A DNA stretch of 64,000 nt from Gracilibacillus orientalis (GTDB taxonomy: Bacteria; Bacillota; Bacilli; Bacillales; Amphibacillaceae), in the NCBI RefSeq assembly GCF_900114645.1, contig NZ_FOTR01000007.1, positions 186,001 to 250,000 on the forward strand, given 5' to 3'. A program made the position numbers and the translations under genes. Below are positions 2,673 through 56,010 of this stretch, piece after piece; positions within the stretch are counted from its first letter, which is position 1; every line of letters starts with the position of its first letter. The notes under the pieces were generated by a model that ran no database searches, had not been told where the DNA came from, and saw only the letters and a program-made list of their open reading frames with translations.

Positions 2673-2885
2673 AAAACGAGGTTGAGACAAAAGAGTAATT
2701 AAACAGGAAAAATCTGAACATTAATGCCTGAGCAAATTTACCACTTCGGCAAAATACTTCGCTTTCCTTGGGCACGGATTCAGCTAGTGGGAGTTCCAAC
2801 AGGAGCCTGCGTATTTTGCCTACGCTAAGTTCAGATTGTTCGGATTCTCCTTTTTCCTATTTAGTTATGTCCCAGCCTCGTTTTT
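2673..2885. repeat. Long imperfect inverted-repeat intergenic element (copy 1)
   Basis: The left arm (AACGAGGTTGAGACAAAAG onward) is matched in reverse complement by the right arm (AACGAGGCTGGGACATAAC onward), each about 45 bases. An inner pair, GGCAAAATACTTCGC and its counterpart GCGTATTTTGCC, lies nearer the loop. The whole can fold into one long hairpin. No credible ORF lies within it. Inner blocks resemble those at 50.5 kb. It sits between two genes reading toward each other. Confidence 0.75.
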
Positions 2886-40695: not shown

Positions 40696-40925
40696 ATAAA
40701 AAAACTCCCCCCTCATAATAAGGGACGAGATATTCGCGGTACCACCCTTGTTGCACTTCGCATGAAATGCCACTTAAGGAAATAACGATGCAGACCACAC
40801 CGTCTTCATTCAACATGAAGAAACTCTGGAACGTAATTCATGGTAAGATTATTTACTAGCTTTCACCAACCGCTAGCTCTCTAAAAAAGGGAACCTTCCA
40901 CTACTTCGAACCTTCATTGTTTTAT
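40696..40925 (-). promoter_or_regulatory. Tyrosine T-box riboswitch of tyrS
   Basis: The T-box sequence AAGGGTGGTACCGCG is perfect on the minus strand at 40735-40749. A terminator hairpin (about 40696-40730, then T-run) follows it. A Stem I with the AGCTAGCGG/GCTAG elements lies at its start, and TAC at 40833-40835 in AATTACGTTCC is the likely Tyr specifier. Uncharged tRNA-Tyr would favour the antiterminator. Confidence 0.95.
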
Positions 40926-41054
40926 AGATGTTTAATTGTTATATCATTATTAGCATATTTGTAATAAAAATGCAATATTATTTTCATTAATTTCTATAAA
41001 TTTTGTTTGACTGCTGTGCTATAATATTTAGTGAAATATTTAGGAGGTAATCTT

Positions 41055-46767: not shown

Positions 46768-47074
46768 GCTGACCATAAGCATGAGTGTTTAAGAAAAAAC
46801 ACTATTTTAGACCTTATTTAAAAGAAAACAAGAAATCTGGTATGCTACCGTTCGAAAACAATTTTAAATCTACACTATTTCTTGTTCAACGGGATCCCCA
46901 CTCGTTATAAGATATGACTTAGGCTTGAAAATTCTGATATTTAAGAGATACCAGGAAAGTGAGCCCACCCGGACCTTATAACAGACAAAAATAAGCATCG
47001 TGACATGCAAAAAAGGGTGGATATCTGATCGTTTACTTTGCTCACATACGGTTGAAATGAATAGTATAGATAAC
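46768..47074. other. Non-coding stretch after acuC
   Basis: No gene. No clear terminator after acuC was found: the sequence AAGAAAAAACACTATTTT is AT-rich with no stem of note. Small ORFs here are artefacts. The stretch runs into the repeat cluster. Confidence 0.4.
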
Positions 47075-47210
47075 ACCCGCTTCGGCTTGTCCATTTCGCT
47101 TTCCGGGTGGCGTGCTCGTCAGCTAACTTTGCAAAGAAAAGCCCTTTGCAAAGTGGATATCCGCTCAAGCTGATCACCCTGGAGTCGAAATGGCCGCCTA
47201 CGCTACATCA
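47075..47210. repeat. Long inverted-repeat intergenic element (copy 2)
   Basis: The segment GCTTCGGCTTGTCCATTTCG onward pairs with its near reverse complement in GAAATGGCCGCCTACGC. A middle hairpin (CTTTGCAAAG with CTTTGCAAAG) forms the loop arm. No ORF. Related in layout to copies 1, 3, 4 and 5. Confidence 0.65.
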
Positions 47211-47304
47211 TGCTCGACAATGCGTGTAAGTAGTGATGACTACTGCCATTCTATGTTTGAAGAAAACTCGACATGTTCCGTGTACCTAACATTGTAGCAT
47301 CACT

Positions 47305-47450
47305 ATCTAGCGAAGGCCGGACACTTCCACTCCAGTGGGAACTGTTTTACTCGAAGATCCACTTTTCCAAGTGTTTTTTGCTTGGAAAAGTTAGCTGAGA
47401 GGAAAACCCCACGGAAAGGGAAGTGGCCAGCCGTAGCGATTGCCTAGCAT
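47305..47450. repeat. Long inverted-repeat intergenic element (copy 3)
   Basis: Left CTAGCGAAGGCCGGACACTT mirrors right GGCCAGCCGTAGCGATTGCC across about 90 bases. The interior has CTCCAGTGGGAAC and CCCCACGGAAAGGGAAG, blocks that recur at 50.8 and 55.9 kb. A small internal hairpin (CTTTTCCAAG / CTTGGAAAAG) makes the tip. Confidence 0.75.
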
Positions 47451-47537
47451 TCTATATCTTTCAAAACACGCTGGATTCATGTCGCTGCTATTAGACAAAA
47501 CGCTGTGATACCAAGGATTTTATACTTTCTTACATTA

Positions 47538-47567
47538 TTAAAAAGGATGACACTGTTGTCATCCTTA
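47538..47567 (-). terminator. motS terminator
   Basis: AAGGATGACA pairs with TGTCATCCTT around a three-base loop, followed on the minus strand by TTTTTAA. The motS stop overlaps its start. Confidence 0.85.
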
Positions 47568-48371
47568 AGATTCCTCTGTTGAATCAAGTATTACTATTTC
47601 TACTCTTCGATTTGTACTCCATCCTTCAGAACTATCATTTGATGCTACTGGCCGTGTATCACCAAATCCAGTTGCGATAAAGCGAGATTCTTTAAAATCA
47701 TTTGATTCTATGAGAAATCGAATAACACTACTAGCTCGAGCACCTGATAACTCCCAATTCGAAGGATAACGATAGCTTGAAATCGGGCGATTATCTGTAT
47801 GTCCCTCTACTCTGACTTCATTTGGAATATTAGAGAGTAATGTACTAATTTTATTCAAAAATGGTTTAGCGGGGTCAAGCACTTCTGCTTCCCCTGTTTC
47901 AAAAAGAACTCTTTCCTGTAAAACCAATACAACACCTTGATCGGTTCTAGTAGCAGAAATAACCTGATTTAAATCATTTTTATTTAAATAGGATTCTACT
48001 TCTGCTAACAACTCATCTAGCTCGTCTTGATCTGGTGTGCCTTCCACTGTATTAAATTCTGAGTCGATTTGTTCTTGTCCTTCATGGTCTTCACCAAGAA
48101 TTGTATCTTCTGATTTATCATCATTTTCTTCTTCTTTTAGTACTTCTACATTTTCAGTTGGAAATTGTTCTTCAATGATAGATGGCATTGCCTCAAATAT
48201 GTTTTCACTTTTAAAGGCGTCCGCAATCGCTCTGAACTTTTCCGCATCTATTTGTGACATGGAAAATAACAAGACAAAAAATACTAAAATTAATGTTACC
48301 ATATCCGCATATGTTACCATCCATTTTGGTGCACCTTTTTTCTCTGGACGTTGTTTGTTTCTACGCTTCAT
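47565..48371 (-). CDS. motS: Flagellar motor stator MotS (Na+-type)
   Basis: 268 residues. A basic head and one helix carrying the ion-binding Asp (MVTYADMVTLILVFFVLLFS), an acidic linker, and a C-terminal OmpA-like peptidoglycan-binding domain with VEGHTDNRPISSYRYPSNWE. It anchors the sodium-driven stator to the wall. It is linked to motP and ccpA as in B. subtilis, whose MotPS is a Na+ stator. It overlaps motP by 11 bases. Confidence 0.93.
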   Translation of the reverse strand: MKRRNKQRPEKKGAPKWMVTYADMVTLILVFFVLLFSMSQIDAEKFRAIADAFKSENIFEAMPSIIEEQFPTENVEVLKEEENDDKSEDTILGEDHEGQEQIDSEFNTVEGTPDQDELDELLAEVESYLNKNDLNQVISATRTDQGVVLVLQERVLFETGEAEVLDPAKPFLNKISTLLSNIPNEVRVEGHTDNRPISSYRYPSNWELSGARASSVIRFLIESNDFKESRFIATGFGDTRPVASNDSSEGWSTNRRVEIVILDSTEES

Positions 48372-49185
48372 TAAAGGATTCCTCCGTGAAATTCTCCTCT
48401 TCTGTTTCTACTTTCTTATTCTTTTCTTTATCTGATAAAAATGCGCTTAGTTTTTCTTTCAAAATTCTAGGATTTTGTCCAGATTGTACACCGATTACAC
48501 CTTCTATAATAACTTGCTTTATAAAGACCTCTTCACTTGTTTTCGTTTCTAATTTACCAGCCATTGGTGTAAATACTAAGTTCGCCATCACAGATCCATA
48601 GAAAGTTGTTAGTAAGGCCACTGCCATACTGGGGCCAAGAGTAGTTGGATCCTCCAAATTTTGCAACATAAGAATTAAACCTATTAAAGTACCGATCATT
48701 CCCCAGGCAGGTGCATATTCACCAGCTTTTTCAACAATTAGACGGCCACGGTAATGGCGATCTTCCATTGCATCAATTTCTGCGTTCATAATATCATTAA
48801 TCACTTCAGGCTCAATCCCGTCAATGGCTAATAGTACGCCTTTTCTAATATAGGGATCATTCACTTCTTCTAGTTCATTTTCCAGAGCCAATAATCCTTC
48901 CCGTCTAGCTCGATCAGATAATCGCTCAAATAATTCAATCAATTCGGCCAAATTATGTTCATTTCGCTTAAATACTTCTTGTATAACATTTTTCGTTGTT
49001 TTTATTTGTTCAATATTAAAATTAACTAGTAGTGCCGCTACTAGACCACCAAGTACAATCAAGACAGAGGATCCTTGCACAAAACCAGCAAAGCCTCCCA
49101 TACCACCACTGCTAATAATCCCAAACATAATCATTATAAAACCAATGGTAATGCCGATTGGAGTCAAAAAATCTCTTTTGTTCAT
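48361..49185 (-). CDS. motP: Flagellar motor stator MotP (Na+-type)
   Basis: 274 residues, MotA/TolQ/ExbB-like with four helices. It has PIGITIGFIMIMFGIISSGG, EKAGEYAPAWGMIGTLIGLI and GPSMAVALLTTFYG, with the Pro/charged loop contacting FliG between helices 2 and 3. With MotS it forms a Na+ stator. The start is ATG 49185 behind GGGGAGAG. It lies 83 bases after ccpA with a terminator between. Confidence 0.93.
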   Translation of the reverse strand: MNKRDFLTPIGITIGFIMIMFGIISSGGMGGFAGFVQGSSVLIVLGGLVAALLVNFNIEQIKTTKNVIQEVFKRNEHNLAELIELFERLSDRARREGLLALENELEEVNDPYIRKGVLLAIDGIEPEVINDIMNAEIDAMEDRHYRGRLIVEKAGEYAPAWGMIGTLIGLILMLQNLEDPTTLGPSMAVALLTTFYGSVMANLVFTPMAGKLETKTSEEVFIKQVIIEGVIGVQSGQNPRILKEKLSAFLSDKEKNKKVETEEENFTEESFNEA

Positions 49186-49213
49186 AGTATTCTCTCCCCA
49201 GTAAAAAACTCTA

Positions 49214-49252
49214 AAAATAAAATGCCAGGATGTAACGAAGCATCCTAGCATT
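49214..49252 (-). terminator. Terminator or attenuator between ccpA and motP
   Basis: ATGCTAGGATG pairs with CATCCTGGCAT (one wobble), followed by TTTTATTTTT on the minus strand. It lies just beyond the ccpA stop and should reduce readthrough into motPS. Confidence 0.8.
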
Positions 49253-49268
49253 ATTATCGGCATTTATT

Positions 49269-50264
49269 TTATTTTGTTGAGTTTCTTTTAACAATTTGAT
49301 GTGGTAATACAACATTTTGTTCCTCTACGTTTTCTTTATTCATAAATTTAGTCAATAAACGCATCGCAACCGCACCAATGTCATACATAGGTTGTACAAC
49401 TGTTGATAGTGTTGGACGTACCATTGTCGCTAATCTTGTATTATCAAAACCGACTACTTCAACGTCCTCAGGGACATTAACCCCATTATCTTGTAGACCA
49501 TGGATAACACCAAGTGCCATTTCATCCGTTGCTACGAAAATCCCTGTTGGATAATCTTTGATGTTAATAATTTGATTAGCTGCCTCTATTCCTGATTCAT
49601 AGGAGAACTCTGCTGATATAATATAATCCTCATTTACTTCTTTATTCGATTCTTTAATCGCTTTTACGTAACCTGCATATTTCTTTTCATTGACAGCAGA
49701 AGTTTCTTGCCCACTTACATAAATCGGATGTTTTGTGCCGTTTTCAATGAGAAGTGAGGTTGCTTCATAAGCTGCTTGTTCATAATCAATATTAACTGAT
49801 GGAATGGTTTCACTCGAATCAATGGTTGCAGCTAAAGCTACAGGTACAGGCGAAGTTTTTAATTGCTGTACATGCTCTTCACTAATATTCGCGCCCATAT
49901 ACACTAGGCCATCTACTTGCTTTTCAAACATGGTATTAATCAATCGTAACTCTTTATCTTTATTTTGATCAGAGTTACTCAAAATAATATTATATTTATA
50001 CATAGTAGCAATATCATCGATACCTCTAGCTAGCTCTGAAAAGAAGATGCTTGAAATATCTGGAATGATAACCCCTACTGTAGTTGTTTTTTTACTTGCC
50101 AGACCTCTTGCAACAGCATTTGGACGATAGCCTAGTCTTTCTATTGTATTTAGTACTTTTTTTCTTGTCGCTGGCTTCACGTTCGGGTTTCCGTTCACAA
50201 CACGTGATACTGTAGCCATGGAGACGTTAGCTTCTCTTGCTACGTCATAAATTGTTATATTCAT
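49269..50264 (-). CDS. ccpA: Catabolite control protein A
   Basis: 331 residues of LacI family. The helix-turn-helix [20 protein letters not shown] at residues 3-22 is followed by the hinge and the periplasmic-binding-like core with [10 protein letters not shown] and [16 protein letters not shown]. It binds cre sites with HPr-Ser46-P as cofactor and controls carbon metabolism, including the two cre candidates of this window. Start ATG 50264 after GGAGGTTA. Confidence 0.97.
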
Positions 50265-50504
50265 TATAATAACCTCCAATATTCTAATTAACGGTATATT
50301 TCTCTCATCATACGCTACAAAGAGTATTTCTGCAAAAAATAAACGATATCTACATTATATATGTATATCATTCATATTATAACAAATTTTGCACAAAAAT
50401 TAACATCAAAATAATCATTTTATGAAAAACTTTTCATTTTATTATATCATGTACCCTATTGAACTTAAAATAAACTACATAAAACATAAACTGTGAAGTA
50501 ATTT
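50265..50504. other. ccpA upstream region
   Basis: An AT-rich untranslated and promoter region. On the minus strand a perfect TATAAT (50376-50381) is a candidate -10; the -35 is poor. Otherwise nothing but the start of the repeat block. Confidence 0.4.
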
Positions 50505-50725
50505 ATTGCGTGGATTTGCTCTTCCACCTTTTGTGAGTGCTGGGAAACGCTGCGGCAGAATACTCCGCTTTCACCCAAGGGCACAAGTGCGACATCTGTT
50601 CAACCAAGTTTTCACAGTGTCTTCTATGCCACAAGGCACGGCCTCTGTCTCCTCAAAAAGCAAAAAAAGCTTTTCTGCGGGGTGTAGGAGTCTGCGTATT
50701 CTGCCTCCGCTAGTAAGGATTCTCT
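50505..50725. repeat. Long inverted-repeat intergenic element (copy 4)
   Basis: GCTGCGGCAGAATACTCCGC pairs with GCGTATTCTGCCTCCGC across about 130 bases; CTTTCACCCAAGGGCAC follows the left arm, as CTTTCCTTGGGCACGG does in copy 1. A Lys-rich tip, AAAAAGCAAAAAAAGC, lies before the right arm. A 73-codon ORF in it is spurious. Confidence 0.75.
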
Positions 50726-50794
50726 GATGATAGAAAGGTTAAAATCCATGGAATAAACATCTTGAGGATTTATTTTCACTTGATCAGAAGACTA

Positions 50795-50935
50795 TTCTAA
50801 GCTGCGGGAAAATGCGACACTCCTGTGGGAAAGGAACAGTCTGAAGACCCCGCAAGAAGCGATTTTTGCTTCTGAGGAGGCTGAAGCGTTCCCACGGAAA
50901 GGGAGCGTTTTTTCGCAGCGATGGCCTACCACTCA
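50795..50935. repeat. Long inverted-repeat intergenic element (copy 5)
   Basis: GCTGCGGGAAAATGCGACAC mirrors the right arm ending TTTTTTCGCAGCGATGGCC. CTCCTGTGGGAAAGGAACAG and CCCACGGAAAGGGAGCG are the best-conserved inner blocks. The hairpin tip is GAAGCGATTTTTGCTTC. It lies about 70 bases from copy 4. Confidence 0.8.
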
Positions 50936-51028
50936 TTCATAAAAGTATGGATGGGAGCCTCACTATATAGAGAATTTCATTACTTCGCTGTTTGTATCTA
51001 CTGTTCTATAGGAGAAAATTAGGCAAAA

Positions 51029-55927: not shown

Positions 55928-56010
55928 CAAACTCCTGTGGGAAAGTAACAGTCTGAAGCCCCGTGATGTGTCTGTGTCTTCTAGTAACGCTTCGTAGTAT
56001 ACTTTCTTGT
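55928..56010. repeat. Truncated intergenic repeat (copy 6)
   Basis: ACTCCTGTGGGAAAGTAACA and CTGAAGCCCCG repeat the block of copy 5, but only the left half is present. The tail GTATACTTTCTTGTCTTA is shared with the units at 10.6 kb and 47.5 kb. Confidence 0.65.

Follow-up and report, generated by a model that had tools for sequence, protein, structure and literature searches.

Two intergenic gaps in the window, a 64,000-nucleotide stretch of the Gracilibacillus orientalis genome (contig NZ_FOTR01000007.1, positions 186,001 to 250,000), each hold a single composite element of approximately 510 to 585 nt carrying two divergent hairpins of approximately 131 nt. The original prediction, which placed these gaps on both sides of a motPS-ccpA block, had described four repeat copies in tandem pairs. 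All four copies lie where it put them and score with a covariance model (41.5–123.7 bits), and the inner blocks it quoted are present in the sequence. The copies are not in tandem; those in each gap are divergent, minus strand then plus, and together belong to a single larger element. The copy given as 50505 to 50725 is indeed a hairpin, but its extent is 50545 to 50713 and is lengthened by an internal insert. The parts of the two elements, termed A and B, and one further hairpin are as follows.

46962 to 47544, no strand: element A, whole unit with two divergent hairpins, delimited by how far its matches in other parts of the genome extend and by alignment of copies
47075 to 47206, minus strand: left hairpin of element A (covariance model R1, 102.5 bits; in the training alignment)
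47307 to 47441, plus strand: right hairpin of element A (R1, 123.7 bits; in the training alignment)
50471 to 50479, no strand: left outer arm of element B (TRYGMANNA consensus of 43 elements, read outward; position inferred from the core)
50486 to 50995, no strand: element B from core to core, 510 nt (positions 1192–1701 of locus L001)
50486 to 50501, plus strand: left terminal inverted repeat core of element B, ATAAACTGTGAAGTAA (from the sequence and the pairing of ends in L001)
50545 to 50713, minus strand: left hairpin of element B with the internal insert (R1, 41.5 bits; outside the training alignment)
50798 to 50923, plus strand: right hairpin of element B (R1, 96.4 bits; in the training alignment)
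50980 to 50995, minus strand: right terminal inverted repeat core of element B (from the sequence and the pairing of ends)
51002 to 51010, no strand: right outer arm of element B (consensus over 43 elements; position inferred from the core)
2739 to 2828, minus strand: fifth hairpin, unpaired (54.9 bits)

Elements A and B are alike in their interiors, each with two hairpins, and unlike at their ends. Element A has matching copies elsewhere in the genome, including C23 (583 bp at 94%) and C29 (at 92%). Element B is bounded by a 16-nt core with the consensus AYAAACTGCGMAGTRA, inverted at its two ends, and a terminator-like repeat is present in the sequence on its right side. The insert in its left hairpin (50545–50713), approximately 50 nt long with a CAAGGGCACAAGTGC-like stretch, has similar counterparts inside hairpins of loci L018, L036, and L053. 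Elsewhere in the window, the unpaired hairpin at 2739–2828 (minus strand) is enclosed by another inverted repeat (2690–2886) ending in TATGTCCCAGCCTCGT, and a fragment at 55932–56010 carries the block CTCCTGTGGGAAAGTAACAGTCTGAAG, which the covariance model does not report. A T-box leader at 40718–40926 on the minus strand (129.1 bits) is the only Rfam match in the window; no family reached threshold over the elements.

The hairpin was characterized from a collection whose third and last profile round gave 310 matches in the collected loci, including 153 distinct, full-length hairpins. From these, 62 were selected, and 47 diverse hairpins were used in the alignment. RNAalifold returned 30 base pairs, 25 with double compensatory changes, and 96.9% of the 1367 cells in the hairpin structure were paired. 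Cells in which both sides had changed numbered 249, compared to 72 (SD 8.5) in 500 shuffles and 25 to 36 in slid controls, and none of the 500 shuffles attained any of five measures. The hairpin fold is under selection. The original prediction had called for compensatory changes between the arms, which are there, and its description of the repeats as structured is strongly supported by this covariation. A tally of the pair tables gave 58 G-U cells versus 12 A-C cells, an excess that favors the written strand as the one that folds. This strand reads outward in both hairpins of an element. In the sample of loci collected for their resemblance to these elements, 84 pairs of neighboring hairpins lay less than 400 nt apart, of which 76 were divergent (median gap 104), eight were on the same strand, and none were convergent; some of the same-strand pairs belong to elements having three hairpins.

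The elements are abundant in the 4.61 Mb genome containing the window (G000; 29 contigs). A left-end pattern allowing one mismatch had 60 sites compared to a single site for a control pattern, and a right-end pattern allowing two mismatches had 112 compared to 16, with the left ends included among the 112. In several cases, element ends lie near contig ends. The covariance model found at least 42 hairpins in this genome, where the original prediction had expected no fewer than about five copies. Across the order Bacillales, the model matched in at least 58 of 81 genomes and at least 43 of 59 genera, both counts being lower bounds from a survey in which up to 42 candidates per genome were scored under strict filters. 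Among named genomes, 45 of the 51 stretches with an exact match to the left end are from Gracilibacillus. The other six comprise one each from Ornithinibacillus, Virgibacillus, and Pseudogracilibacillus, each with a divergent hairpin pair, one from Oceanobacillus with one hairpin, one from Natronobacillus with partial matches only, and an Omnitrophota contig with none.

Copies outside chromosomes are rare. Two element or hairpin queries matched 2 of 72,556 plasmid records, with element A found in none of them, and one element used as a query matched none of 50,697 phages. Among viral contigs, one pattern gave no match and another gave three stretches, one of which had a hairpin. Within the viral collection, a 5.8 kb contig (L275) carries a single hairpin at 1342–1462, scoring 70.6 bits. 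Such near absence from plasmids and phages is unusual for mobile DNA and counts against reading the elements as mobile cassettes.

Near-identical copies at unrelated sites have common end points. In the genome G002, the copies L112 and L117 match at 98.7% identity over 471 nt, and their similarity ends approximately 3 nt beyond the core on both sides. In G009, the left end is common to three near-identical copies up to the ATCC before the core, after which they diverge. Five right ends in the window's genome (L029, L070, L071, L072, and L074), sorted from left ends by a simple rule that misfiled some, agree inward of the core except for one core base of L029 and differ outside it and in its first bases. 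The outer sequence, though it differs, follows TRYGMANNA outward on both sides in a consensus of 43 of the 45 elements with paired ends, L008 and L150 being left out as doubtful pairings. This outer arm and the inner arm, TGCGMAGTA, are one motif in inverted orientation. Since the outer arm varies among near-identical copies, it belongs to the site, and the inner arm to the cassette.

Terminal inverted repeats were found in 45 elements with both ends. The flanking target duplications raised in the original prediction did not appear: direct repeats in the flanks of these 45 elements gave no signal at offsets of 3 to 44, a test that a duplication of only one or two bases might escape. Inverted likeness between the two outer flanks of an element likewise showed no in-register excess (z of 1.5 at offset 0). 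Other ends also occur. At the site of element B, in the gap that separates ccpA from the DAHP synthase gene, G012 has a two-hairpin element (L103) with ends of a third family, GGATTATGCGACATAACTCT. The end variant ATAAAATGCGACGTAAC belongs to an element of Radiobacillus kanasensis (L158; NZ_CP088021.1, 1950–4170) in which an IS110-family transposase gene, together with its flanking DNA, breaks up the left hairpin. As a driver of the elements, IS110 was rejected on this one case: the gene sits within the conserved block of the left hairpin and so seems to have inserted into the element.

Left ends tend to come after T-runs, which are likely terminators. A run of five T oriented toward the element was found 15 to 70 nt outside 54% of 54 left ends in the window's genome and 61% of 71 in relatives, compared to a background farther out of 11% and 8%, respectively. 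Right ends showed no excess (23% and 17%, n = 35 each). A crude test for a stem plus a T-run gave a weaker signal at left ends (26% and 23% toward the element, 13% and 21% away) and, at right ends, 17% and 9% toward and 14% and 3% away.

We compared 13 sites with one or more relatives for each. At five of the 13, sister species clearly have differing elements flanked by conserved sequence. Two of the five are divided between contigs in the assembly of the window's genome, and their occupants differ among G000, G002, and G009; the other three are the orthologue pairs L012/L112, L014/L169, and L030/L114. Orthologues and paralogues were compared among 46 elements having both ends in one locus, with four orthologous pairs above thresholds. 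The occupant of L112 was 0.99 identical to that of L117, at another site, and 0.52 to its orthologue L012; that of L014 was 0.97 identical to L015, also at another site, and 0.56 to its orthologue L169; and that of L114 was 0.96 identical to L112 and 0.56 to its orthologue L030, the three orthologue values being computed over the longer sequence. Over aligned positions only, the same orthologues were 0.82, 0.75, and 0.78 identical, near the flank identities of 0.67 to 0.83, which counts against cassette exchange. The pair L052/L268, at 0.75 compared to best paralogues of 0.85 and 0.73, gave no clear exchange. Beside the five clear sites, L020/L168 and L021+L063/L165 look to be further cases of differing occupants by piecewise matches.

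Four sites, namely L029, L065, that of element B at ccpA, and L145/L162, carry just a remnant, half of the element, or nothing of it in one of the genomes; at L145/L162, the deleted form is that of the window's genome. The site of element A holds another repeat in G002 and a short gap in G009. Different, abundant-looking repeats lie at or inside the same sites in relatives at L101 (the element A site of G002), L134, and L209, and an example contains CGCCCGTTTAG...ACGTAGCGACT...GAATCAAC. At the two split sites, homology passed through the end core and stopped 0 to 11 nt inside it in six of eight junction comparisons; of the remainder, one reaches the core via a second, weaker piece, and one ends 48 nt short. 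The empty sites that the original prediction proposed to look for in related strains were found in part, as the remnant, half, and absent copies above, but none of the 13 sites could be read as empty to the base.

Our best explanation, in which we place about even confidence, is that these units are non-autonomous mobile cassettes that a putative recombinase, acting in trans, moves or exchanges. A cassette would have an inverted end sequence on either side, with a strand-specific hairpin inside each, and the two hairpins would be directed outward from a center of approximately 100 nt. The putative enzyme would recognize the paired arms at the ends, possibly along with hairpins folded from single-stranded DNA, and cassettes would be inserted or exchanged by site-specific recombination, not by a DDE transposase. 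The paired inverted arms, taken with the lack of target duplication, suggest a recombinase over a DDE transposase. End points common to near-identical copies at unrelated sites fit small mobile elements, as do copies that differ or are absent between sister species. On both counts the data fit the first half of the original proposal, that of mobile elements relying on an enzyme from another place, but no such enzyme was found. Neither a recombinase nor a circle or excision product turned up, which counts against the cassette reading. The selected stretches contained ordinary genes and no autonomous parent transposon with the same ends, and no transposase was enclosed between ends in five other genera.

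The main rival explanation is that the elements are old and fixed and have been homogenized by RecA-dependent gene conversion, paralogues overwriting the interiors while flanks and outer arms stay orthologous, without recent movement. Consistent with it are the sites common to several species, the paralogue identities of up to 0.97–0.99 within a species, the failure to find an enzyme or target duplication, and the near absence of plasmid and phage copies. Conversion tracts should end variably, however, and in independent sets of near-identical copies the end points coincide on both sides; the sequence common to the ends is also short. Gene conversion inside old elements would account for the pattern of sites as well, but we consider it somewhat unlikely. 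That the hairpins are primarily functional RNAs, such as divergent small RNAs from the center or elements of mRNA stability or termination, with their spread being secondary, seems improbable. The strand-specific fold with its 58 G-U and 12 A-C cells would suit an RNA, as would a weak similarity to the Staphylococcus aureus sRNA tsr24 (37.2, 31.0, and 30.6 bits compared to a gathering score of 50), yet identical covariation is expected from single-stranded DNA, and no Rfam family attains the gathering threshold across either element of the window.

Mobilization by a Y1 (RAYT) transposase, as for REP/BIME-like elements, would account for high-copy, structured palindromes in inverted pairs with no target duplication, and nine of the 13 genomes from the genus have PF01797 matches. 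G002, however, is a one-contig genome whose copies are very recent (98.7% identical), and it lacks a PF01797 match, which makes a Y1 transposase unlikely; matches are also lacking in G004, G011, and the 73% complete G003. In the window's genome the only match is a 24.3-bit fragment containing a stop, and in G009 it is a 62-aa fragment. This reading we regard as extremely unlikely. Movement by the host XerC/XerD, as with p-dif modules, is very unlikely. Inverted arms around a short spacer would suit these recombinases, for which an autonomous partner is not needed, and one dif per genome was found in five of five genomes. The Bacillus subtilis dif resembled the left ends with p = 0.019, the best of eight tests, but the dif of the genus itself gave p = 0.70 for left and 0.77 for right ends, and the other five tests gave 0.15 to 0.82. 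The arms look Xer-like by eye, but the shuffle test with the host's own dif gave the resemblance no support.

A more ambitious form of the cassette reading, which we put forward tentatively and consider rather unlikely, is a cassette-exchange system. Each chromosome would offer dozens of conserved docking sites with their own outer arms, where interchangeable two-hairpin cassettes would be swapped by a putative recombinase reading single-stranded DNA hairpins; the hairpin would be common to the order Bacillales and used by several end families. Cassette exchange, if true, would be a recombination system that operates host-wide and lacks a visible mobile parent. With a covariance model, defined ends, recent copies, and orthologous sites whose occupants differ, the mechanism is directly testable. 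The elements are very common between the genes of many Bacillales genomes.

REP/BIME and TIR families are associated with RAYT/TIRYT transposases (PMC3733652). Like these families, the present elements are non-coding intergenic palindromic repeats in inverted pairs and in many copies; the unit here is ten times longer, and no Y1 transposase is found in the genome with recent copies. The bacterial MITEs RUP, NEMIS, bcr1, and EFAR are also short non-coding units with terminal inverted repeats. The elements here differ from them in their two conserved hairpins, with no target duplication detected and no parent insertion sequence seen in the selected stretches. The stem-loop families Bhal-1 (74 bp), Efa-1 (163), and Sta-1 (105), according to PMC2267715, are structured intergenic repeats of low-GC Firmicutes, some of them double hairpins; their sizes differ, and it is by the sizes given there, not by sequence, that they are set apart. 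No description of the two-hairpin element was found in the open-licence literature, including the accessible parts of PMC10969869 and PMC8632094. In Rfam, three elements match RF02577 (S. aureus tsr24) weakly in sequence and structure and fall short of the gathering score, the maximum over elements in seven loci being 37.2 bits compared to 50, and an open-licence literature search for "tsr24" returned unrelated works only.

Integron cassettes and p-dif modules are exchangeable units at fixed sites, with strand-specific hairpins or inverted recombinase sites. The elements described here would resemble both as exchangeable units at fixed sites with such hairpins or inverted sites and differ from them in that no integrase or attC motif was identified and a resemblance to dif was unsupported. 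In kind, the elements are short structured intergenic repeats, a known class, and it is the behavior of sites and occupants that is unusual.
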